Of a stretch of DNA of 64,000 nucleotides, positions 3,471 through 23,763 are shown in pieces. The stretch is from Companilactobacillus pabuli. Its GTDB lineage: Bacteria > Bacillota > Bacilli > Lactobacillales > Lactobacillaceae. The translations under genes and the position numbers were made by a program. The notes beneath the pieces are model-generated. The model saw only the letters and a program-made list of their open reading frames with translations, had not been told where the DNA came from and searched no databases. Position 1 is the stretch's first letter. Every line of letters starts with the position of its first letter. The stretch lies in contig NZ_CP049366.1 of NCBI RefSeq assembly GCF_014058425.1, positions 248,001-312,000 on the forward strand. Direction: 5' to 3'.

Positions 3471-3497
3471 ATCGTAATTAAGAAATAAAACAACTAT

Positions 3498-3668
3498 CTA
3501 GTCGGTAGCAAAAGCCCTGTGATGGCTCAGCCGCCAAATTATTCTTAGCAACTTGTTGCTTAGAATAAGACCAATCTTGAAGACTTTGCCCGAACTTGGG
3601 CTTAGCAAAGGCTCCAAGTTGTGTCGGCAGCGTTCCAGCCAATCACAGGGCTTTTGCGGACGACGGCA
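3498..3668 (+). repeat. Structured intergenic repeat, family 1, copy 1
   Basis: This 171-bp element begins CTAGTCGG and ends GACGACGGCA. It is 170/171 identical to the copy at 14130-14300. The ends form a long helix (GCAAAAGCCCTGTGAT near 3506 with ATCACAGGGCTTTTGC near 3642). Inside are a 12-bp hairpin (ATTCTTAGCAAC/GTTGCTTAGAAT) and a further stem-loop, giving a cloverleaf-like shape. It lies between two convergent genes. Open frames crossing it are judged to be shadows. Confidence 0.85.
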
Positions 3669-3682
3669 ATATAACACCAATA

Positions 3683-7460: not shown

Positions 7461-8750
7461 ATGTTAGACATTAAGCTAATCAGAAAAGATCCTGAATGGA
7501 TCAAAAACAAATTAGCTTCACGTGGCGTTACAAGTGAAGAAATCGACGAATTACTTTCATACGATGAAAAACGTCGTGAGTTGTTAGTTAAGACAGAAAC
7601 TTTGAAGGAAGAAAGAAACAAGGTTTCTCAAGGAATTGCTAACAAGAAACGCAACAAAGAAGACGCTAGTGACGAAATCGCTGCTATGAAAAAAGTCGGT
7701 GGCGATATCAAGAAGATCGATGCTGACCTTGAAGAAACACAAAACAAGATGAACTACATCTTAGTTCGTCTACCCAACATCCCTGATGATTCTGTTCCCG
7801 TTGGTCCTGATGAAAGTACTAACGTTGAAATCAGAAAAGTCGGTGCCGTTCCTAAAGAAAACTTCAAACCAAGACACCACTGGGATATCGGTGAAGAACT
7901 GGGAATTTTAGACTTCGAACAAGCTACTAAAGTTTCAGGTTCACGTTTTGTTTACTACATTGGTATGGGTGCTAGACTTGAACGTGCTGTTTACAACTTC
8001 ATGTTGGATCAACACCAAAAAGAAGGCTATACAGAAGTAATCCCTCCATACTTGGTTAACAACAACGCCATGTTTGGTACTAGTCAATTCCCTAAGTTTA
8101 CCGAAGATGTCTACACAGTTATGGTTGATGAAAACCCATTGACTTTGATTCCTACAGCCGAAGTTCCTTTGACAAACTACTTTGCTGACAAGATTTTGGA
8201 CGAAAAAGATTTGCCAAAATATGTTACAGCTTTGACACCTTGTTTCCGTTCTGAAGCAGGTTCTGCCGGTCGTGATACTCGTGGATTGATCCGTATGCAC
8301 CAATTTAACAAGGTTGAAATGGTTAAGGTTACAAAACCTGAAGAATCATACAACGAACTAGAAAAATTGACTGCTAATGCTGAAAATATCCTAAAACAAT
8401 TAGGACTTCCATACCACGTAATCGTTCTTTCAAGTGGGGATGCAAGTTTCAGTTCTGCTAAGACTTATGATCTTGAAGTTTGGATGCCTGCTCAAGACAA
8501 GTACCGTGAAGTTTCAAGTTGTTCAAACTGTCTAGACTTCCAAGCTCGTCGTGCTCACATCAGATATCGTGACGAAAATGGTAAGACAAAACTAGCTCAC
8601 ACATTGAATGGTTCAGGACTTGCTGCTGGTCGTACAGTTGCCGCTATTTTGGAAAACTACCAAAATGAAGACGGTTCTGTAACAATTCCAGACGTTTTAG
8701 TGCCATATATGGGTGGAGTTACAAAAATTACTAAAGAAAATGCCAAATAG
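7461..8750 (+). CDS. serS: Seryl-tRNA synthetase
   Basis: The 429-residue class II synthetase charges tRNA-Ser. The N-terminal 110 residues form the long coiled-coil arm that contacts tRNA-Ser ([19 protein letters not shown] start). The catalytic core holds motif 2 ([25 protein letters not shown]) and motif 3 near the end ([20 protein letters not shown]). I chose ATG at 7461 because GGAGG at 7449-7453 precedes it; an upstream in-frame ATG at 7446 overlaps that site. It is controlled by the T-box leader. Confidence 0.97.
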
Positions 8751-8814
8751 TTATTGACCTGAGGCTTATAAATTGATAAGATTTAATAGTTCTGTTAAAG
8801 AGCTATTGAATTAT

Positions 8815-8887
8815 TCCGGATTAGCTCAGTTGGTAGAGCATCTGACTGTTAATCAGGGTGTCGTCAGTTCGAGTCTGACATCCGGAG
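8815..8887 (+). tRNA. tRNA-Asn (GTT)
   Basis: A full cloverleaf is visible: acceptor TCCGGAT (8815-8821) with ATCCGGA (8880-8886), anticodon GTT at 8848-8850, and T-arm GTTCGAGTC. No CCA is encoded. Confidence 0.96.
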
Positions 8888-8927
8888 TTATAAATACTTA
8901 GGAAATACCTAGGTGTCTCAATATATT

Positions 8928-8962
8928 ACATCTAGTTCATTGGAATTAGGTGTATTTTTTTT
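8928..8962 (+). terminator. Terminator between the two tRNA genes
   Basis: ACATCTA (8928-8934) pairs with TAGGTGT (8947-8953) and a run of T residues follows. Confidence 0.65.
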
Positions 8963-8964
8963 AA

Positions 8965-9037
8965 GCCGTCTTAGCTCAGTTGGTAGAGCATCGGTATCGT
9001 AAACCGGCGGTCACAGGTTCAAATCCTGCAGACGGCA
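8965..9037 (+). tRNA. tRNA-Thr (CGT)
   Basis: Acceptor GCCGTCT (8965-8971) pairs with AGACGGC (9030-9036). The anticodon is CGT at 8998-9000 and the T-arm GGTTCAAATCC is present. No CCA is encoded. A TAGGAAATACCT string follows both this and the preceding tRNA gene, suggesting the two units share an origin. Confidence 0.95.
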
Positions 9038-9067
9038 TTGATAATTTTAGGAAATACCTCCCATGAA

Positions 9068-9094
9068 GGGCATCGTTTAGCGGTGTCCTTTTTT
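9068..9094 (+). terminator. Terminator after tRNA-Thr
   Basis: GGGCATCG pairs with CGGTGTCC (G-T pairs allowed), then TTTTTT. Confidence 0.8.
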
Positions 9095-9099
9095 AGTGC

Positions 9100-9127
9100 A
9101 AAAAAATAGGAGTGCAATTGCACTCCT
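9100..9127 (-). terminator. Terminator of the fumarate-reductase-like gene
   Basis: The perfect 20-bp palindrome AGGAGTGCAATTGCACTCCT (9108-9127) is followed on the minus strand by ATTTTTTTG. Confidence 0.85.
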
Positions 9128-9136
9128 AAAAGAGTT

Positions 9137-10963
9137 TTATTTAATTTGTTTCAAAGCATCAGAAACGGCTTCTTTAATAGCTTTACTTGAAGCAGAAGCA
9201 CCAGAAATTGTATCAACATCGACCGAATTCTTTTCTACGATTTCTTTTGGCAATTCCTTAACAGCTTTGAGACCGTAATCGTCAGATTCACTTTGTTTCA
9301 AAACTTCGATATCTTGAATGTCGTCTTTGCTATTGGCAGTGACACGAACGACGATTTCATTTCCCATACCGGCAGTTGATTTACCGATGTATTGGTTGTC
9401 GTTAGTTTCATAGTGTTCTTCGCCAACATCAGATCCTAAGCCCTCTTCGTGAACACTAGCTGAGGTATTAGCGTCGACTTTAACTGACTCAACGTCTTTT
9501 TCTTTAGCAGCATTTTCACCGGCAATCTTACCAAAAATCAAGTTTTCAGCAAGGTTACTACCACCGTTGTATTGACGTCCCATCAAACTTCCTAATTCAC
9601 CACAAGCGTATAGGTGAGGGATGATTTCATCGTTTACATCAACAACTTCTGCGTTGGAATTGTGAACGGGACCACCTTGAGTATTCAATAATCCTTGAAC
9701 CATAGCTAAACAGTAGTAAGGACCATCATCGAAGGCTGTCAAAGTATCAGCATCACGGTCAAAGGCATAGTCACGTTTGATTTCTGCAAAGTGGTTGAAG
9801 TCTTTGATAGTGCTTGCCAACTTGTCAGCATCAACGTTCATTACTTCAGCTAAACTGTTCAAATCATCAGCTTTAACGACTGACTCTAAGAATTCTGGAT
9901 AAGGAGCGTTTTTATCATTCTTTAATTCGTCGTACTTCTTTTGATCAAAGACAACATAAGGATGACGTTGAGCTAAAGGAACTCTCCAATTGCCGTGATC
10001 TTGGATGTGTCCGTGACGGTGGATTTCATTTTCATCGAAGTAACGAGTTCCATCATCACCGACAACAATCAAACTGCCTTGGTGGAATGCAGGCCAGTCG
10101 AATGGCAAGAATTGTGAACGTTGACCTTTAGCTGGCTTAGGAGTTAGTCCATGGAAAATGCCATAAGATTCATAATTGTTCATGTTATAAAGTTTAGCAC
10201 CGACTTCACTAGCCATTGTGACACCGATACCTTTGTTATAAAGGGAACCGATAGGATTTAGACTAGTTTCGCCGAGGTAATTTTCGACCATTTCAGGATT
10301 GTTTTCAAAACCACCGGTAGCCATGACGACACCATTGTTGGCTTTGACATTCAAAAGTTTGCCATTACGTTCGATTTGAACACCAACGATAGCCTTTGTT
10401 GCTGGATCTTGAATCAAGTGTTTAGCGGGTGTTTGATACAAGACATCAATTTTGTCAGCACGGTCTAAAACTTGTTGACGGAGATTTTTCCAAAGAGCAG
10501 AGTCAGCGACACCTTCATGGACAGCGACTAATTCGTGAGTAGCTTGACCACGGAATTCTGGGTATTCGTGAGCCATAAAGTGCAAAGCCTTAGATACTGG
10601 TGATTCTGGGTGTTTGCCCATGATAAATGGTTTAACACCGAGATAATTTTCTAGGTAATTAGGGATGTCATAGAGTCCTTTGACGAAAGTTTCCATCAAA
10701 TCCTTGTCATATGACAATGGGAAAGCTAAATCTTCGTAATATTTACGTAAATCATCTAAATTGTCACCTGATGAAATAACTTGACCAGCATAGCGAGTAT
10801 TGCCACCCTCATGACCCTCTGGAGCTGAGTCAGTAATCAAAACTTTGGCGTTGTTGTCAGCCGCAAATCTAGCAGCACTGGCACCAGCACCACCGAATCC
10901 TAAAACGATAACGTCATAAGTTGCGTTCCAATTTAATTTTGAATCCTCAAACATTTCATTCAC
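9137..10963 (-). CDS. FAD-dependent fumarate-reductase-like protein with a C-terminal FMN_bind domain
   Basis: The 608-residue protein lacks a signal peptide. An N-terminal FAD_binding_2 domain opens with the dinucleotide motif VIVLGFGGAGASAARFAA and continues to about residue 480 with the GELGSLMGRQYNGGSNLAENLIFG segment typical of fumarate reductase flavoproteins. Residues about 510-608 form an FMN_bind domain ending in DTISGASAS (584-592), the site where ApbE attaches FMN covalently. It likely reduces fumarate or a related enoate in the cytoplasm using electrons passed through the bound FMN. There is no heme domain. The divergent apbE gene supports this reading. The start may be 10963 or the second ATG at 10954. 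The exact substrate cannot be told. Confidence 0.88.
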   Translation of the reverse strand: MNEMFEDSKLNWNATYDVIVLGFGGAGASAARFAADNNAKVLITDSAPEGHEGGNTRYAGQVISSGDNLDDLRKYYEDLAFPLSYDKDLMETFVKGLYDIPNYLENYLGVKPFIMGKHPESPVSKALHFMAHEYPEFRGQATHELVAVHEGVADSALWKNLRQQVLDRADKIDVLYQTPAKHLIQDPATKAIVGVQIERNGKLLNVKANNGVVMATGGFENNPEMVENYLGETSLNPIGSLYNKGIGVTMASEVGAKLYNMNNYESYGIFHGLTPKPAKGQRSQFLPFDWPAFHQGSLIVVGDDGTRYFDENEIHRHGHIQDHGNWRVPLAQRHPYVVFDQKKYDELKNDKNAPYPEFLESVVKADDLNSLAEVMNVDADKLASTIKDFNHFAEIKRDYAFDRDADTLTAFDDGPYYCLAMVQGLLNTQGGPVHNSNAEVVDVNDEIIPHLYACGELGSLMGRQYNGGSNLAENLIFGKIAGENAAKEKDVESVKVDANTSASVHEEGLGSDVGEEHYETNDNQYIGKSTAGMGNEIVVRVTANSKDDIQDIEVLKQSESDDYGLKAVKELPKEIVEKNSVDVDTISGASASSKAIKEAVSDALKQIK

Positions 10964-10988
10964 TCCAATTCCTCTAAATGTTAGGATT

Positions 10989-11056
10989 AATATAACTCTA
11001 TTTATGGATATTGTGAATAACTTACCTTTGTCGTAAACGACACAAAAGACTATGAT
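10989..11056. promoter_or_regulatory. Divergent promoters with a palindromic operator
   Basis: On the minus strand, TTCACA (11012-11017) and TATATT (10989-10994) are 17 bp apart and serve the reductase. On the plus strand, TTGTCG (11028-11033) and TATGAT (11051-11056) are 17 bp apart and serve apbE. A palindrome TGTCGTAAACGACA (11029-11042) overlaps the plus-strand -35 box and may be an operator. Confidence 0.55.
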
Positions 11057-11107
11057 AGAGGGTGTTCACTATCGTAAATTATTTTTTTATGAATTGAGGA
11101 AAGTTCA

Positions 11108-12037
11108 ATGGGGCTAATTAACAAGAGCTATTATGCATTGGGAACAGTGATCAACTTGTCAGTGGCAGAACCTAGTGGTGTGGCTGATTTAGAGGCTGGT
11201 TACAAGTTGATTCAAAACTTTGAAGATAAGTTGACCGTCAATCGTAACGAGTCAGAAGTCATGTCGATCAATCACAATGCCGGTATCAAGCCAGTTCAGG
11301 TGCCAGAAGATACGTATGATTTAATCAAACGAGCTGTTTTAGTCAGTCGCAAACATCTAGGCTTTAATGTAGCAATCGGACCTTTAGTCAAATTGTGGAA
11401 AATTGGTTTTAAGGGTGCCAACAAGCCTTGTGACAAAGATATCAAGCAACGCTTACAAATTATCGACCCTGAAAAAATAATCCTCGACGACGCCAATATG
11501 AGCGTATTTTTGCAAGAAAAAGGTATGGAGATCGACCTTGGTGGTATTGCCAAAGGTTATATTGCTGACGAGATCAAAAAGCTTTGGCAAAAACGTGGTG
11601 TTCAGACGGGAATTATTGATTTGGGTGGTAATGTTTTGTTAGTCGGCGACAGTTTGCATGAGGACAAGTTATGGAATATCGGTATTCAAAATCCCATTAA
11701 GCCGCGAGATGTCTCCTTAGGTGTCGTGCATATTCCTGAAAAATCAATTGGTACGTCTGGTATTTATGAACGCAAGTTAGTAATTGATGGTCATGAATAT
11801 CACCACATGTTTGATTCAAAAACTGGCTATCCAATCAAAAATAACCTTGCTAGTGTGACAATTATTAGTGACAAGTCGATTGACGGTGAAATTTGGTCAA
11901 CGATTGGCTTTTATCAAGGTATAAAACGTGGTATGGCTTTGATTGAAGCACAAAAGGGAATTGAAGCTGTCTTTATTACGAAGGACTTAGAGACCTTTGT
12001 TACTAGCGGATTGAAAGATATTTTTAAGAAAATATAA
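11108..12037 (+). CDS. apbE: FAD:protein FMN transferase
   Basis: The 309-residue ApbE-family enzyme transfers FMN from FAD onto a Thr or Ser of target proteins. Visible family features are ALGTVINLSV near the start, the EIDLGGIAKGYIADEI motif around residues 140-155, and the Mg-binding region with SIGTSGIYER and HHMFDSKTGYP. It lacks the lipoprotein signal of exported ApbE proteins, so it should act in the cytoplasm, like its neighbour targets. A GAGGAAAG ribosome binding site precedes the ATG. It lies divergent to the FMN_bind flavoprotein and upstream of two FMN-reductase genes, so it probably modifies products of this same locus. Confidence 0.93.
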   Translation: MGLINKSYYALGTVINLSVAEPSGVADLEAGYKLIQNFEDKLTVNRNESEVMSINHNAGIKPVQVPEDTYDLIKRAVLVSRKHLGFNVAIGPLVKLWKIGFKGANKPCDKDIKQRLQIIDPEKIILDDANMSVFLQEKGMEIDLGGIAKGYIADEIKKLWQKRGVQTGIIDLGGNVLLVGDSLHEDKLWNIGIQNPIKPRDVSLGVVHIPEKSIGTSGIYERKLVIDGHEYHHMFDSKTGYPIKNNLASVTIISDKSIDGEIWSTIGFYQGIKRGMALIEAQKGIEAVFITKDLETFVTSGLKDIFKKI

Positions 12038-12131
12038 CTATACTATATGAAAACAATCACATAATTATATTGCTTTACCTAGTGAAACATTTTACAATTA
12101 ACATGACAATAAAATAGAAGTGGGATGATTA

Positions 12132-12743
12132 ATGATGAATAAATTTATCGCTATTGTGGGATCAAATTCCCAAAAATCAACCAACCGTGAATTATTGAAG
12201 TATATGAAGAGACATTTCCAAGATTACGCTGAAATTGAATTAGTTGAAATCAAGGATTTGCCAATCTTTAAGAAGAGTGCAGATAAGTATGTGCCACAAT
12301 TGGCCAAAGACATCGCTAAGAAAATTGAGGATGCTGACGGTGTCATTATTGCTACTCCTGAATACGATCACTCTGTAACGGCTGTTTTGTCGAGTGCCTT
12401 AGCTTGGCTATCATATGGAATCCATCCATTTGTCGACAAGCCCGTTATGATTACCGGTGCTTCTTATGGATCTCTTGGGTCATCACGTGCCCAAGCTCAA
12501 TTACGTCAAATCCTTGATTCGCCAGAATTAAAAGCTAGAATTATGCCTAGTTCAGAGTTCCTTTTGGCACATTCATTACAAGCCTTTGATGATGAGGGCA
12601 ATTTGAAGGATAAAGATGTTGTTAAAGAATTAGACGGTCTCTTCCAAGACTTTCTTCAATTCGTTAATATTTCAAAACAATTGAATAATGCAGAAGACGC
12701 TACAAAGCAAAAAGCTGCTACATTCTCATGGGACAAAGACTAG
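12132..12743 (+). CDS. NAD(P)H-dependent FMN reductase
   Basis: The flavodoxin-fold protein has 203 residues. The phosphate-binding loop [13 protein letters not shown] near residue 10 and the [20 protein letters not shown] segment near residue 78 are typical of the NADPH-dependent FMN_red family, which supplies reduced FMN. It is paralogous to the next gene but stops after the reductase domain. An 11-bp gap with a TAGGAGGG ribosome binding site links the two, so they form an operon. The start could be either of two adjacent ATGs (12132 or 12135). Confidence 0.88.
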
Positions 12744-12753
12744 GAGGGATAGT

Positions 12754-14019
12754 ATGAAATTAGTTGGAATTGCTGGATCAATCGCTGATCAATCATATAA
12801 TCGTACATTATTAAACTTTATCGCCAAACATTTTACAGGACTAATCGACGTCGATGTCTTGGATATCAATGAAGTACCAATGTTCAACCAAGATGATGAC
12901 CAAACAAATAGCCCCGTTATTCAAAATCTTTGCAAGAAAATTTCAGCTGCTGATGGTGTTATCATTGCTACTCCTGAACACAATCACACTGTTCCTGCAG
13001 CCTTGAAGAACGTTATCGAATGGCTATCTTATGAAGTACATCCTTTCGACGGCAAACCCGTTATGATTGTCGGAGCTTCATACCATACTCAAGGGTCATC
13101 ACGTGCCCAATTACATTTGAGACAAATTCTTGAAGCACCTGGTGTTAATGCGGTTGTCTTGCCTGGTAATGAATTTTTGCTAGGTGACGTTAAAACTGCT
13201 TTTGACGAAAATGGTGACTTGAAGGATCAAAGAACAGTTGATTTCTTACAAACTACTTTGCAAAACTTTATCAAATTTGCCAAAGTTATCAACTTGATTA
13301 GTCAATCAAACGGCTATCAAGACGAAGACCTTTCTGCTAAAAAAGGAACTGACACAACTATTCAAGGTATCGACATGAACGACGATGACTGGTTGGACAA
13401 AGCTGCTAAGAAAGTCAATGCCGTTGAAGGTGGCACTTATGTCAAATTAGACAGTGGTTTGTTGACAGTTGATCAATTGAACTACTTCTTAAAGACTATG
13501 CCAGTTGAATTGACTTACGTTGATGAAAATAATCAATTTATTTATTACAACAAAGTTGGCAAAGCTGAAGATATGTTAGCTAAACGTGTTCCTGCTCAAG
13601 TCGGAGATGCTTTAGATAAGGTTCACCCTAATATCGAACGCGTTATGAAACACGTTAAACAAGTTATCTATGACTTGAGAAGTGGTAAGACTGATTTAGT
13701 TTCAATGCCAGTACCTGGTGGTGACGAAAATCATCACGTAATGCACTATTACAAAGCAATGCATGATGAAAATGACAATTACAAAGGTGTTAACGAATGG
13801 GCTGTTGATATCAAACCAATCGTTGACCAATACTTACAACAAACTGGTCAAAAACTAGTCCCAGATCCAAACGCTAAGTTGGATGCTACATCTGGTGCTT
13901 CGAAAGATGAAAGTAAATCAGCAGTTGATGCAAACTCTGGCGCTTCAGAATCAGCTGAAGAACCTGCTGTTAAACCTGAAGTAGAAGTAGACGCTACATC
14001 TAGTGCTTCTAAAAATTAG
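12754..14019 (+). CDS. FMN reductase fused to a PAS-like domain, with a tail of flavinylation-like motifs
   Basis: The 421-residue product has three parts. Residues 1-185 form an FMN_red domain ([33 protein letters not shown]). Residues about 240-365 form a PAS domain of the type attached to DUF438 proteins ([39 protein letters not shown]). The last 47 residues are low-complexity and hold DATSGAS (377-383), DANSGAS (392-398) and DATSSAS (413-419). These resemble the D-x-x-S-G-A-S/T site that ApbE modifies, and the same pattern (DTISGAS) is in the nearby FMN_bind protein. I infer that the tail may carry up to two or three covalent FMNs, moving electrons from the reductase domain to partners. 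The start at 12754 has TAGGAGGG. Confidence 0.85.
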
Positions 14020-14037
14020 ATATTGAATATTGTTAAT

Positions 14038-14085
14038 AAAAATCCCGTTAGAATGTAATTTGTTTACAATCTAACGGGATTTTTG
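14038..14085. terminator. Terminator of the flavin operon
   Basis: AATCCCGTTAGA (14041-14052) pairs with TCTAACGGGATT (14070-14081), with T and A runs on both sides. Confidence 0.9.
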
Positions 14086-14129
14086 TATTGGCGCATGAAA
14101 TAATTACGATAAAATTAAGTATATGGAAT

Positions 14130-14300
14130 CTAGTCGGTAGCAAAAGCCCTGTGATGGCTCAGCCGCCAAATTATTCTAAGCAACTTGTTGCTTAGAATAA
14201 GACCAATCTTGAAGACTTTGCCCGAACTTGGGCTTAGCAAAGGCTCCAAGTTGTGTCGGCAGCGTTCCAGCCAATCACAGGGCTTTTGCGGACGACGGCA
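14130..14300 (+). repeat. Structured intergenic repeat, family 1, copy 2
   Basis: This 171-bp copy differs from copy 1 at one base. It lies at the 3' end of the flavin operon, facing the minus-strand RNA genes. The bases from 14301 to 14414 hold nothing recognisable apart from a TGTTTAAACA palindrome at 14363-14372. Confidence 0.85.
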
Positions 14301-14416
14301 GTTTATCACAAAACAGACCTAATATGTTTAACCACATATGTTCAATATATCCGTCTTCGTAATGTTTAAACAAAATCTAATAGAATAAATCAAGAATTGT
14401 CATTCGAATAAAAAAC

Positions 14417-14722
14417 GCAAAAAAAACAGCTCGTCTTGGGGGGACGGGCTTGTTTTTTCTGCATTACCAGTAGTGTCAGGGACAAAGTTATGAATGCTTG
14501 TGAGGGTTCCATATTTGTCAAATAGAGAGGGATTTGTAATTAATTAATGAAAGCATTCAAAGTAAATTATTGTAATGGGAAACGCATTTGAGGGGGAGAA
14601 CAAGTTGATTGAGGGGGGCAACTTGTTCTGAATGCGAATGAGTTTTATGGCTACGATATGAGGATGTATCGCAACCTTCTTTGGTTAAAAAAGAAGAATT
14701 GCATTTCATATCTTTGCCCCTT
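14417..14722 (-). ncRNA. Structured small RNA, copy 1 of a tandem pair
   Basis: Read on the minus strand, a promoter at 14729-14757 is followed by three hairpins and a terminator. Hairpin 1 is GGTTGCGATA/TATCGTAGCC (14667-14676 with 14649-14658) with loop CATCCTCA. Hairpin 2 is an 11-bp stem (14619-14629 with 14597-14607) with loop CCCCCCTCAAT, inside an outer CGCATT/AATGCG helix. Hairpin 3 closes with GAATGCTT/AAGCATTC (14551-14558, 14492-14499). The terminator is at 14427-14452. A second copy at 14925-15254 keeps all the stems by compensating changes. Some G-U pairs exist only on the minus strand, which points to that strand as the transcript. A 50-codon frame in this copy is cut to 28 codons in the other, so I favour RNA over protein. 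Confidence 0.7.
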
Positions 14723-14728
14723 TCACAG

Positions 14729-14757
14729 TTAATAATATAGCATATATGTTTAAACAT
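14729..14757 (-). promoter_or_regulatory. Promoter of small RNA copy 1
   Basis: On the minus strand, ATGTTT (14752-14757) and TATTAA (14729-14734) are separated by 17 bp. The -35 box is covered by the palindrome ATGTTTAAACAT (14746-14757). Confidence 0.5.
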
Positions 14758-14924
14758 GTACATTCATTTTTAGAAAAAATAATTTTTTGATTTTGGATAA
14801 ATAAATATGTAAATAACATGTTATTATATTTAATTCATTGTGGATTTTTTCACGATGTATAGACCATTTTTTTGATATAATGAATTACCCATAAAAATTC
14901 TTGTATGATCTATTAGAAAAAAAG

Positions 14925-15254
14925 AGCAAAAAAAAACAGCTCATCTGGGGGGACGGGCTTGTTTTTTTGTTACACCTAATGTGTAACGGCATTACCAGTA
15001 GTGTCAGAGATAAAGGTATGAATGCTTATGAGGTTTCCATATTTGTCAAATAGAGAGGGATTTGTAATTAATTAATGAAAGCATTCAAAGTAAATTATTG
15101 TAATGGGATAACGCATTTGAGGGGAGGATAAAGTTGATTGAGGGGGGCAACTTTATCCTGAATGCGAGTAAGCTATTCGGTTACGATATGAGGATGTATC
15201 GCAACCTTTAGAGTTAAAAAAGGAAGGAATTGCATTGATCATATCTCTATCTCT
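14925..15254 (-). ncRNA. Structured small RNA, copy 2 of a tandem pair
   Basis: It has the same order of elements as copy 1. Hairpin 1 is GGTTGCGATA/TATCGTAACC (15197-15206 with 15179-15188). Hairpin 2 is a 12-bp stem AGGATAAAGTTG/CAACTTTATCCT on the plus strand (15125-15136 with 15148-15159). Its loop is identical to copy 1 although the stem has changed on both sides. An extra hairpin GTTACAC/GTGTAAC (14969-14987) is inserted before the terminator. The loops again carry CCTCA. The two units are about 512 bp apart and point the same way, away from nox. Confidence 0.7.
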
Positions 15255-15260
15255 TTCACG

Positions 15261-15289
15261 GTTATAATATAACACATATGTTTAAACAA
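15261..15289 (-). promoter_or_regulatory. Promoter of small RNA copy 2
   Basis: On the minus strand, TTGTTT (15284-15289) and TATAAC (15261-15266) are separated by 17 bp. TGTTTAAACA (15279-15288) overlaps the -35 box as in copy 1. Confidence 0.55.
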
Positions 15290-15486
15290 TTAAATTCATT
15301 TTAGAAAAAAATAATTATTTGTTTTTAGTTTCACAAATACTTCAATTTATGTGATTATAATGTTAAGTTTATTTTTTCGTTTTGAGAGGATTTAAACGAC
15401 ACTTTGACGTTTTATGGGGCGTAAGTGAGGTGGTTTATACTTTTAATTAGATTTATTTATATTCTATATATATTTTTTAATATAGT

Positions 15487-15525
15487 ATGTAAACGCTTTA
15501 ATCATGTTAAAATATTAACTATAAT
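15487..15525 (+). promoter_or_regulatory. cre-like site and -10 box upstream of nox
   Basis: ATGTAAACGCTTTAA (15487-15501) matches the CcpA-binding cre consensus with one mismatch. TATAAT at 15520-15525 is a plausible -10 box, so CcpA bound here could affect initiation. The bases 15290-15486 hold no gene. Confidence 0.5.
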
Positions 15526-15555
15526 GATATTAAATCGTAAAAGGTGGTAATTATT

Positions 15556-16896
15556 ATGAAGGTAAGTATCGTAGGTTGTACACATGCAGGAACTTTTTCA
15601 GCAATGAATATTTTGAAGGAACATCCAGATTGGGAAGTTTCCGTTTTTGAAAGAAATGATAATCTTTCTTTCCTATCATGTGGAATCGCACTTTGGGTAA
15701 GTGACCGTGTTTCAGATCCTAACAAGATGTTTTATGCTAGTCCCGAAGCTTTGACAGAACTTGGTGCACACATGCACATGCAACATGATGTTACAAATAT
15801 TGACTTCGATAATAAGAAATTAGCCGTTAAAAATCTAGTTAGTGGGGAAACTTTCGAGCAAGATTATGATAAGTTGGTCATTACTACTGGCTCAGCTCCA
15901 GTTATCCCTCCAATTCCAGGTATTGATTCAAGCCGCGTAATGCTTTGCAAGAATTGGACTAATGCCAATGAATTGAAAGAAAATGCTAAAGACATCAAGA
16001 GTGCTATCGTTATTGGTGCTGGTTACATCGGTGCTGAACTAGCTGAAGGTTATGCAACTCTTGGTAAAGAAACTACTTTGATTGATGCTTTACCACACGT
16101 TTTAGGTAAGAACCTTGACCCTAACATGTCTGCTGTTGCCGAAAAAGATTATCTCGACAATGGTGTAAAACTTGGCATGGGCGAAAAAGTTCAGTCATTT
16201 GAAGAAACAGATCATAGTGTAATTGTAAAAACTGATAAAAATACTTATGAAGCTGATATTGCTGTTATGTGTGTTGGCTTCCGTCCTAATACAAAGATGT
16301 TCGCTGACGAATTTGAAACTTTGCCAAACGGTGCTTTGATTGTGGATAAATACATGCACACAAGTAAAGAAGACGTCTTCTCAGCTGGTGATGCAGCATC
16401 TGTTCACTACAATCCAACAGGCGACAACCAATATATTCCTTTGGCAACTAATTCAGTTCGTCAAGGTATCTTGGTTGGTAAGAATATCGAAAAAGATACT
16501 GAAGCTTATATGGGAACACAAGCTAGTTCAGCGGTTGAACTATTCGGCAGAACTTATGCTGCCAGTGGTTTGACTAAAGAACACGCTGAAGTTCTAGGTA
16601 AGAAAGTTGATAGTGTATCTCTAGAAGACAACTATCGTCCAGAGTTCATGTTGACAACTACTCCTGTTTTGATGAACCTCGTATGGGATCCAGAAACAAG
16701 AGAAATTCTCGGTGGTGCTTTGACAAGCATGTATGATGTATCGCAATCAGCTAACCTCTTGTCATTAGCAATTCAAAAGAAAGTTACGATCGATGAGTTG
16801 TCCATGGTTGACTTCTTGTTCCAACCTAACTTCGACAAACCAGTTAACTACGTCAGTGCCTTAGCTGGAGCTGCTGTAGAAAAAGCTGATAAATAA
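15556..16896 (+). CDS. nox: NADH oxidase, water-forming type
   Basis: The 446-residue FAD- and NAD-binding oxidoreductase has the FAD motif KVSIVGCTHAGTFSA at the N-terminus, a redox-active cysteine C42 in SFLSCGI, and the NAD motif AIVIGAGYIGAELAEG near residue 155. A second FAD motif is DVFSAGDAASVHY, and a C-terminal dimerisation domain ends the protein. This fits the Nox/Npx class that uses O2 to regenerate NAD+ in lactic acid bacteria. Water as the product is inferred from similarity; CoA-disulfide reductase is the main alternative. The start at 15556 is chosen because AAAGGTGG lies 8 bp upstream. Confidence 0.9.
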   Translation: MKVSIVGCTHAGTFSAMNILKEHPDWEVSVFERNDNLSFLSCGIALWVSDRVSDPNKMFYASPEALTELGAHMHMQHDVTNIDFDNKKLAVKNLVSGETFEQDYDKLVITTGSAPVIPPIPGIDSSRVMLCKNWTNANELKENAKDIKSAIVIGAGYIGAELAEGYATLGKETTLIDALPHVLGKNLDPNMSAVAEKDYLDNGVKLGMGEKVQSFEETDHSVIVKTDKNTYEADIAVMCVGFRPNTKMFADEFETLPNGALIVDKYMHTSKEDVFSAGDAASVHYNPTGDNQYIPLATNSVRQGILVGKNIEKDTEAYMGTQASSAVELFGRTYAASGLTKEHAEVLGKKVDSVSLEDNYRPEFMLTTTPVLMNLVWDPETREILGGALTSMYDVSQSANLLSLAIQKKVTIDELSMVDFLFQPNFDKPVNYVSALAGAAVEKADK

Positions 16897-20403: not shown

Positions 20404-21921
<1,518 letters not shown>

Positions 21922-22257: not shown

Positions 22258-23763
22258 ATGGAAAAAGAATACATTTTAGCAATTGATGAAGGGACAACGA
22301 CGGCTCGGGCTATTATTTTTGACCACAGTGGTAAAAAGGTAGCTGTTGCCAGACACCCAATTCAACAAATTTTACCGAATCCTGGTTGGGTCGAACATGA
22401 TCCCAATCTGATTTGGAATGCTGTACAAACTACTATCGCTACTGCTCTGATTGATTCAGGTATTAAACCCGATCAGATCAAAGCAATTGGGATTGCTAGT
22501 CAAAGAGAGACAACTGTTGTTTGGGATAAAGAGACTGGTTTGCCAATTTATAATGCCATCGTTTGGCAAAGTCGACAAACTGTTCACTTGGCTAATGACA
22601 TGATCAAGGCTGGTTTCAAAGATGAAATTCATAAAAAGACTGGTTTGATTATCAGCCCTTATTTCTCAGCTACTAAAATTCGTTGGATTCTCAATCACGT
22701 TGAAGGTGCTCAGGAGCGTGCTGAAAAAGGTGAATTGCTCTTTGGAACTATTAATACGTGGTTGTTATGGAAGTTGACTGATGGGGCCAGCTTTATGACC
22801 GATTATGCCAATGCTAGTCGGACGATGTTGTTCAATATCAATACTTTGCAATGGGATGAAGATTTATTAAAGCTCTTTAATATTCCTAAAGCTATGTTGC
22901 CAGAAGTTAAATCGAATTCAGAAGTATTTGGAATAACTAAAAATTATCAATTTTATGGTTCGGAAATTCCAATTTCTGGGATGACTGGTTCTCAACAAGC
23001 CTCACTCTTTGGTCAAATGGCCTTTGAAAAGGGAATGGTCAAAAATACTTACGGAACTGGTGCTTTTGCGGTCATGAATACCGGTGACAAACCAGCTTTA
23101 TCCGATAATAATTTGTTAACGACGATTGCTTACGGTATCAACGGTGAAATCAAGTATGCCTTAGAAGGTAGTGTATTCGTGGCTGGAGCGGCGTTACAGT
23201 GGTTGCGTGATGATATGCGTTTGATCAACAATACTCCGCAAACTTCAGATTATGCAAAAGATTCAACCGATCATGATGAAGTTTATGTCGTTCCAGCTTT
23301 TGCCGGTTTGGGTGCACCTTATTGGGATAACCAAGCACACGGTACGATGTTTGGAATTACTCGTGGCACAACTGATAAGGACTTGGTCAAAGCGACGTTG
23401 CAGGCGATTGCATATCAAACGAAAGATATCATTGAAACGATGAGTTCTGATGCTAAGATGCCAATTGAAGTCTTAAAAGTCGACGGAGCAGCATCTGCCA
23501 ATGATTACTTGATGCAATTTCAAGCTGATATTTTAGGGATTTCTCTCCAGCGTTCATCAGAATTGGAAACCACTTCATTAGGAGTTGCTTTTATGGCTGG
23601 TTTAGGAATTGGTTTCTGGAAAGATATCGACGATATTAAGAAGAACTATCAAACTGGTAAGATGTATCAACCAAAAATGAAAGAATCTCTTAGAAATGAT
23701 CTTTATGATGGCTGGAAAGAGGCTGTTAAAGCAACAATGGCCTTCAAACATAACGCTAAATAA
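22258..23763 (+). CDS. Glycerol-kinase paralogue lacking key residues
   Basis: The 501-residue protein is close to the upstream GlpK over its whole length without gaps up to residue 300. Several functional positions differ. Asp245, the catalytic base, is Ser ([12 protein letters not shown]). The HPr-phosphorylated His231 is Gln (NYQFYGSE). The VDGGAANN motif is [11 protein letters not shown]-site and QRE motifs remain. The frame is intact and codon use is normal, so it is not a decaying pseudogene. I infer a changed substrate, reduced activity or a regulatory role. It has its own AGGAG ribosome binding site and is separated from glpK by a repeat and a terminator. Confidence 0.85.

Follow-up and report, generated by a model that had tools for sequence, protein, structure and literature searches.

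An FMN reductase of Companilactobacillus pabuli with a PAS domain and a disordered tail carrying three predicted ApbE flavinylation motifs

The tailed reductase and its neighbours

The window analysed here, a stretch of 64,000 nucleotides from Companilactobacillus pabuli, contains a gene, referred to here as REDT, in which an FMN reductase domain and a PAS domain are followed by a short tail of repeated motifs. Its features, and the possible end of the transcription unit to which it may belong, are as follows.

12754..14019, plus strand: REDT, FMN_red-PAS_10-tail protein, 421 aa (ORF, Pfam, AlphaFold2)
12754..13185, plus strand: FMN_red domain, residues 1-144 (Pfam PF03358, E 9.7e-39, 132.8 bits, cut-off 24)
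13477..13815, plus strand: PAS_10 domain, residues 242-354 (Pfam PF13596, E 1.6e-25)
13876..14016, plus strand: disordered tail, residues 375-421 (pLDDT below 50 throughout)
13882..13902, plus strand: motif 1, DATSGAS, residues 377-383, predicted acceptor Ser383 (sequence)
13927..13947, plus strand: motif 2, DANSGAS, residues 392-398, predicted acceptor Ser398 (sequence)
13990..14010, plus strand: motif 3, DATSSAS, residues 413-419, predicted acceptor Ser419, with S for G at position 5 (sequence)
14038..14084, plus strand: inverted repeat ending in a T run (21-nt arms, 95% complementary), possible terminator of an apbE-RED1-REDT unit

The initial annotation had described a reductase whose tail carries three ApbE-type motifs in otherwise disordered sequence. 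Both parts of this description are borne out, as the motifs begin at residues 377, 392 and 413 and are thus spaced 15 and 21 residues apart, and every residue from 375 to 421 has a pLDDT below 50. In the AlphaFold2 monomer, built on a 21-row alignment, the two domains are well placed while the tail is left unplaced. The homologues in loci L002 (C. formosensis) and L003 (C. futsaii) are 98% and 97% identical to REDT, and a further relative, P0001, also 98% identical, has the same motif spacing (15, 21). An alternative in-frame ATG is present at 12688, 5' of REDT, and AGGAGG immediately precedes position 12754. The inverted repeat at 14038-14084 was not among the matches of a terminator scan, and Rfam at gathering thresholds returned no RNA family other than two tRNAs between 8700 and 15700.

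Three neighbouring genes bear on the function of the tail.

9137..10963, minus strand: FAD_binding_2 plus FMN_bind reductase, 608 aa, divergent from apbE (Pfam)
9194..9214, minus strand: motif DTISGAS, residues 584-590, in the FMN_bind domain of the 608-aa reductase (sequence)
9455..9475, minus strand: extra motif DANTSAS, residues 497-503, in the linker before FMN_bind of the 608-aa reductase (sequence, alignment)
11108..12037, plus strand: apbE, flavin transferase, without visible signal peptide (PF02424, E 2.5e-75), the single ApbE match of the genome
12132..12743, plus strand: RED1, a second FMN_red protein, 203 aa, tail-less, directly upstream of REDT (Pfam FMN_red, E 3.1e-36)

RED1 is likely the heterodimer partner of REDT. 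As noted at the outset, apbE lies between its two putative target genes, sitting two genes upstream of REDT on the same strand, and none of the four proteins has a signal peptide visible by eye; the ApbE protein begins straight in its ApbE domain. The multi-flavinylated proteins of Meheust et al. 2021 resemble REDT in having several ApbE sites per chain, whereas they are described as extracytosolic and contain more than one FMN-binding domain, and REDT offers bare peptides, with no FMN_bind domain and no visible signal peptide (PMC8238504). The identification of REDT as an extracytosolic multi-flavinylated protein was rejected on these two grounds, a signal peptide not being seen by eye and FMN_bind being absent.

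The closest solved relative of the window ApbE is 7esa (E 2.1e-74). Catalytic residue roles in FmnB were taken from the account in PMC12052999, and our reading of the alignment is that the Ser, His and Arg of FmnB are kept in the window ApbE and that its Asp is replaced by Glu. The same Glu is found in most ApbEs that adjoin PAS-tail or CrdB-like genes, in an alignment with four rows left out and one row partial, while this position is Asp in L076 and L099 and Lys in L045; L108 and L109, whose ApbEs we take to be of the secreted type, show GDALST. Most of the other ApbEs in which no signal peptide is visible share the Glu, so it is probably tolerated, and we read it as a feature of the lineage that entails no loss of function.

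The 608-aa reductase is likely a second ApbE substrate. The DTISGAS attributed to it by the initial annotation is indeed present in its FMN_bind domain. Of 13 Companilactobacillus rows aligned, counting that of the window, 12 have the linker motif, in one case as DATAGAS, and L025 is without it. The best solved relative of the protein is urocanate reductase, and in the alignment HHTMGG of 6t85 corresponds to LNTQGG and NRLGGN to QYNGGS. A His and an Arg that bind the substrate in solved fumarate and urocanate reductases are thereby replaced, and without these two residues the neighbour is probably not a fumarate reductase. All NCBIfam matches listed for it (25 of 38) were under the cut-off, including vinyl phenol reductase VprA, and its AlphaFold2 model was unusable (mean pLDDT 46.7, 13-row alignment). 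The genome encodes one more FMN_bind protein, of 602 aa, at L178.

Two other features of the window were observed. One is an interspersed repeat, roughly 180 bp long and containing an inverted pair of 23 nt, that resembles a MITE or REP-like element. It lies at 14120-14310 and also at 3496-3677, 31162-30987 and 22092-21975; it had at least 41 genome matches of at least 120 bp (40 of 95 candidates scored), many of them only of a 120-bp core, and no Rfam match in the copy at 14120-14310 (searched from 8700 to 15700). At 20413-21921 and 22258-23763 there is a tandem pair of similar genes that appear by eye, from their translations, to be glycerol-kinase-like.

Tail motifs and their association with apbE

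The published consensus for ApbE targets is D-x-x-[S/T]-G-A-[S/T], and seven residues are enough for the enzyme (PMC12052999). The engineered flavin-tag described in the same source, in which a seven-residue terminal motif suffices and which performs best at a protein terminus, is artificial, whereas the tags of REDT are natural (PMC12052999). Two of the three REDT motifs match the consensus exactly, and motif 3 is the least certain site because Ser replaces the consensus Gly; S-for-G sites in general are uncertain, since a Gly-to-Ala change roughly halved flavinylation in a study cited in PMC12052999. We scored motifs with a strict pattern, D-x-x-[ST]-[GS]-A-[ST], and a wide pattern, D-x-x-[STA]-[AGS]-A-[ST], with no Pro allowed at x.

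When the last 47 residues of REDT were shuffled, three strict motifs arose in 0 of 200,000 shuffles. A database search gave 1495 relatives of REDT, and among the best 120 of these 1495 at least one D-x-x-[ST]-[AGS]-A-[ST] was present in 117; the other three comprise two shortened records and P0078, which has Ala at motif position 4. For a test of enrichment 327 proteins or ORFs were gathered, 16 without a recognisable tail were left out, and the proteins from searches and loci were clustered at 70% identity into 40 representatives with 2976 tail residues. These held 106 strict motifs, where shuffling gave 0.41 on average and 3 at most (2000 shuffles), and each of the 40 had at least two wide motifs. 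The 121 wide motifs of the representatives had S (59), T (47) or A (15) at position 4, G (90) or S (31) at position 5 and S (116) or T (5) at position 7, and the spacers between motifs vary in length and sequence among relatives. Nine of 107 further proteins were without a wide motif: seven end before the tail or lack it (P0164, P0202, P0204, P0205, P0221, P0222 and P0226), the ends of P0176 and P0212 read DTATGAF and VNTGAS, respectively. Motifs arising by chance are thus ruled out by the shuffles, and also by background ORFs, as 942 ORFs of at least 150 aa contained 12 strict motifs, at least two of which, in the L018 pyruvate oxidase and a small PAS-like protein of L151, resemble real tags.

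We then compared the distribution of the tail with that of apbE in a sample of 151 Lactobacillaceae genomes. The PAS-tail query matched 67 genomes, 48 of them strongly (more than 180 bits). Full-length ApbE was present in 48/48 genomes with a PAS-tail protein compared to 30/103 others (Fisher p ~1e-18, a value that ignores relatedness), 14 genomes whose best ApbE match was weaker than 1e-50 having been set apart. Loss of the motifs with retention of apbE, which had been proposed as evidence against the idea, was looked for in these 48 genomes: 47 tails keep at least two wide motifs and the remaining one is frameshifted. By the exact consensus, at least one motif was found in 39 and at least two in 32, so that 8 of the 47 intact tails are without an exact published motif.

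FMN_bind was found in 37/48 PAS-tail genomes compared to 33/103 others. The 11 PAS-tail genomes without it have one ApbE match each, and ten of them are at least 99% complete, G464 being only 65% complete. Across the sample, full-length ApbE occurred without FMN_bind in 21 genomes, and in 20 of these there was a motif-tailed FMN_red or PAS protein, namely in the 11 PAS-tail genomes and in nine others, in all of which the tailed gene adjoins or overlaps apbE. Fifteen of the 20 have an exact published motif, whereas G318, G439, G477, G493 and G519 fit the wider patterns only; the exception, G494, has an ApbE with a lipoprotein-like start. Given that a tailed FMN_red or PAS protein is encoded in 20 of the 21 FMN_bind-free apbE genomes, the tail is likely the ApbE substrate in these genomes, as judged from gene content with DUF2271, DUF3570, NqrB/RnfD and Flavodoxin_4 outside the count. 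In a second set of 39 genomes, representing 40 of the 79 loci considered below, ApbE was present in all 39, in two pieces in G012, and nine were without FMN_bind. In a phylum-wide sample the query matched 95 of 299 genomes, exceeding 100 bits only in the C. pabuli genome itself and, at 167.9 bits, in G042 from the same order; the other matches were weak PAS matches, and the query is blind to FMN_red-tail forms without PAS.

A direct precedent exists in Lactococcus. The FMN_red proteins described by Huang et al. 2024, mainly from Firmicutes, are encoded beside apbE and bear one or two motifs at the C-terminus; flavinylation is reported for two such tailed proteins, from L. lactis and L. taiwanensis, and required the motif Ser/Thr (PMC11334425). 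Their class and REDT have in common PF03358, a motif-bearing C-terminal extension and a co-located apbE; PAS is absent from the class as described there and its motifs number one or two, while in REDT a PAS_10 domain is inserted and there are three motifs, with more in some relatives. One could still suppose that the REDT motifs are not flavinylated, or that the tail is a generic motif-like linker, as variants with Ala at position 4 or S for G are common. This is very improbable given the roughly 250-fold enrichment of motifs over shuffles, the presence of ApbE in 48/48 genomes and the flavinylation in print of proteins of the same kind (PMC11334425). Thus, conservation, co-occurrence and the Lactococcus precedent together give us high confidence that the REDT tail is flavinylated.

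Domain architectures and other tagged proteins

Alignment and size were used to sort 79 loci from named genomes into 49 of the PAS-tail type, 28 of a CrdB-like type and two short forms. As for the search that the initial annotation had suggested, for FMN_red-PAS proteins with repeated-motif tails next to apbE, apbE lies inside the examined locus in 32 of the 49 PAS-tail loci, mostly directly before RED1, as well as in 24 of the 28 CrdB-like loci. A RED1 homologue was present in 46/49 and 28/28 loci, respectively. At least two wide motifs were found in 48 of the 49 PAS-tail loci, L063 having one; by the exact published consensus, 45/49 have at least one motif and 31/49 at least two.

In the CrdB-like type (28/79) the same FMN_red domain runs on into a chain of about 800-840 aa instead of into a PAS-tail, and L046, the member that was checked by Pfam, consists of FMN_red, FMN_bind and FAD_binding_2. 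CrdB of the Vibrio ruber CrdAB reportedly likewise unites FMN_red with FMN_bind and FAD_binding_2 in a single polypeptide. While L046 and, reportedly, CrdB are thus single chains, the window encodes an FMN_red with a PAS-tail and, as a separate gene, the FAD_binding_2/FMN_bind reductase. The hydroxycinnamate reductases HcrAB and CrdAB combine an FMN_red-type helper with a reductase that has an FMN_red-type domain, as does the window (HcrAB: PMC10295242). Because FMN_red continues into either, the tail and FMN_bind occupy the same place, and this exchange of a PAS-tail for FMN_bind plus FAD_binding_2 at one fusion point supports an equivalent, presumably electron-accepting, role.

The tail is also found in other contexts. 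PAS-tail proteins without FMN_red occur in Loigolactobacillus (L071, L075) and in L170, L171, L173 and L174, mostly with 2-5 motifs, and FMN_red-tail proteins without PAS occur in L145, L148 and L149, whereas L041 (Dolosicoccus, 8001-10142) encodes a 713-aa protein with FMN_red, two PAS_10 stretches by Pfam and six motifs. Judged by these architectures, the tail is the common part, and FMN_red and PAS are variable. A strictly intramolecular shuttle is not the whole story, since PAS-only and FMN_red-only tailed forms exist.

Several further arrangements were seen. P0062, P0083 and L041 are relatives of 711-713 aa with six or seven motifs, some of them between domains. In L151, a 185-aa protein (2410-2967), PAS-like by eye and without a Pfam match, has a single terminal DAISGAS and is encoded directly upstream of apbE. 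L081 (1048-1971) and L105 (1345-1815) encode FMN_bind proteins without a visible signal peptide and with terminal tags, DTTSSAS/DSHSSAS or DATTSAT.

In Pediococcus stilesii (L018, 4968-6863), a pyruvate oxidase ending in DVVSGASQHV is encoded directly before apbE-RED1-REDT. C-terminal motifs were found in 12 of 120 pyruvate oxidase relatives among the matches listed, the query's own record included. At a match limit of E 1e-150, pyruvate oxidases were found in 73/151 genomes, and 30 loci were examined; ten of these encode a tagged enzyme, including all five sampled genomes of genus g2, which have PAS-tail proteins of the LjPAS type. Full-length ApbE accompanied 10/10 tagged compared to 12/20 untagged loci (p 0.03). 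Tagged pyruvate oxidase is a possible new class of ApbE substrate, going by these sequences. Untagged pyruvate oxidase genes are also found beside apbE and PAS-tail genes, in L071 (4969-6732), L075 (5327-7084), L139 (3227-3652), L140 (23-409) and L155 (14-670; within 2 kb, two genes between), and their placement hints at a link to oxygen metabolism. A gene at 689-1483 of L155, riboflavin kinase/FAD synthetase-like by eye (GFFDGVHRGHQ), is likewise close to PAS-tail and apbE genes.

These architectures bear on whether the tail merely tethers a cofactor. In such a scheme, which is near the reading of Huang et al., the tail FMN would fold back into the site of the FMN_red dimer and prevent cofactor loss; their models place the motif-bearing extension near flavin sites, and they propose that non-covalent sites gained the motifs (PMC11334425). 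This explanation has to accommodate up to seven motifs against one site per subunit, tailed PAS-only proteins that have no FMN_red and the tagging of pyruvate oxidases, and the unplaced tail of the AlphaFold2 model also speaks against it, if weakly, as a monomer only was modelled. We therefore regard tethering alone as unlikely.

Proposed electron transfer and relation to the LjPAS system

Valladares et al. 2015 describe an FMN_red pair, FRedA/FRedB, and the protein LjPAS of Lactobacillus johnsonii, and already note a PAS-FMN_red fusion in other lactobacilli (PMC4500961). An FMN_red pair and PAS_10 are common to that system and the window, and our PAS-tail query matches LjPAS-type proteins such as L170, which has PAS_10. 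The main text of PMC4500961 contains no reference to ApbE, covalent flavin or flavinylation. The LjPAS primers printed there, translated by hand, give MAEPKWL for the forward primer, as at the start of L175, and SGASEY-stop for the reverse primer, and LjPAS must therefore end in at least one SGAS.

The same system is relevant to a second explanation of the tail, in which PAS would sense how far the tethered FMNs are reduced and regulate assembly or activity of the reductase pair, making the protein a redox or oxygen sensor. The PAS-tail type accounts for 49 of the 79 loci, free LjPAS delays FRedA/B start-up in vitro, and the LjPAS gene is repressed under anaerobic conditions (PMC4500961). Against a sensor, tails are also carried by the PAS-free FMN_red proteins L145, L148 and L149 and by pyruvate oxidase, so the tail must be useful without PAS; moreover, LjPAS was made in E. 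coli, with a strain table that lists no apbE plasmid (PMC4500961). A sensor is in our view slightly less probable still than a tethered cofactor.

Instead, we favour the view, at a probability of roughly 0.6, that REDT works in the cytosol as an NADH:flavin reductase whose own tail bears the flavins that accept its electrons. The cytosolic ApbE would move FMN from FAD to the last Ser of each tail motif, resulting in two or three covalent FMNs per REDT chain. RED1 and the FMN_red domain of REDT would form a heterodimer with ordinary bound FMN that takes electrons from NADH, and the tethered FMNs would act both as an acceptor at high local concentration and as a swinging arm. That the tail FMN is reduced by the FMN_red domain of REDT itself is somewhat favoured. 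In this genus, plausible next acceptors of the electrons are the covalent FMNs on the FAD_binding_2/FMN_bind reductase encoded divergently from apbE; where relatives lack such a reductase, O2 or other small acceptors may receive the electrons.

The initial annotation had proposed a cytoplasmic chain in which the tail passes electrons to a fumarate-reductase-like enzyme. Its first half, tail flavinylation, is strongly supported by the motifs, the co-occurrence with apbE and the Lactococcus precedent, whereas the hand-over fits the genus only: a close homologue (more than 60% identity) of the 608-aa reductase is found in 15/49 PAS-type loci, all of Companilactobacillus. Since FMN_bind is absent in 11/48 genomes, the acceptor cannot be the same everywhere, and an obligatory partnership with the fumarate-reductase-like neighbour as a general rule is ruled out. 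Even within Companilactobacillus, delivery to the neighbouring reductase is a tentative proposal.

Because Huang et al. already show such tails to be flavinylated, categorical novelty is gone. What is new is the PAS-containing multi-site form, the PAS-tail proteins including LjPAS, the second motif in the neighbouring reductase and the tag on some pyruvate oxidases. The main text of PMC11334425 makes no mention of a PAS domain, lactobacilli, johnsonii or pyruvate oxidase, and no prior report of PAS- or pyruvate-oxidase-linked flavinylation was found among the open-access papers searched, subscription journals being mostly outside this search.

ApbE flavinylation is mostly discussed, in the literature consulted, as an extracytosolic device against flavin loss. 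Its cytosolic use on disordered repeat tails in many members of one order calls for another reason, which for intracellular flavinylated tails would most simply be electron transfer at high local flavin concentration. The tails also offer a substrate for orphan apbE genes, as in 20/21 FMN_bind-free apbE genomes of the Lactobacillaceae sample; in the text of Meheust et al., 4% of genomes remain orphan-apbE genomes even with their new substrate families (PMC8238504). More speculatively, lactic acid bacteria may possess a portable natural flavin tag, the short peptide D-x-x-[ST]-[GS]-A-S repeated in flexible tails and linkers, loaded by cytosolic ApbE and attached to NADH:flavin reductases, PAS_10 proteins including LjPAS, FMN_bind reductases and pyruvate oxidases. 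The resulting cytosolic pool of tethered FMN would exchange electrons between these enzymes and O2 and so set the output of H2O2, and LjPAS would then have been studied in its unloaded form. The tail motif thus alters how LjPAS, a probiotic H2O2 regulator, may be read.
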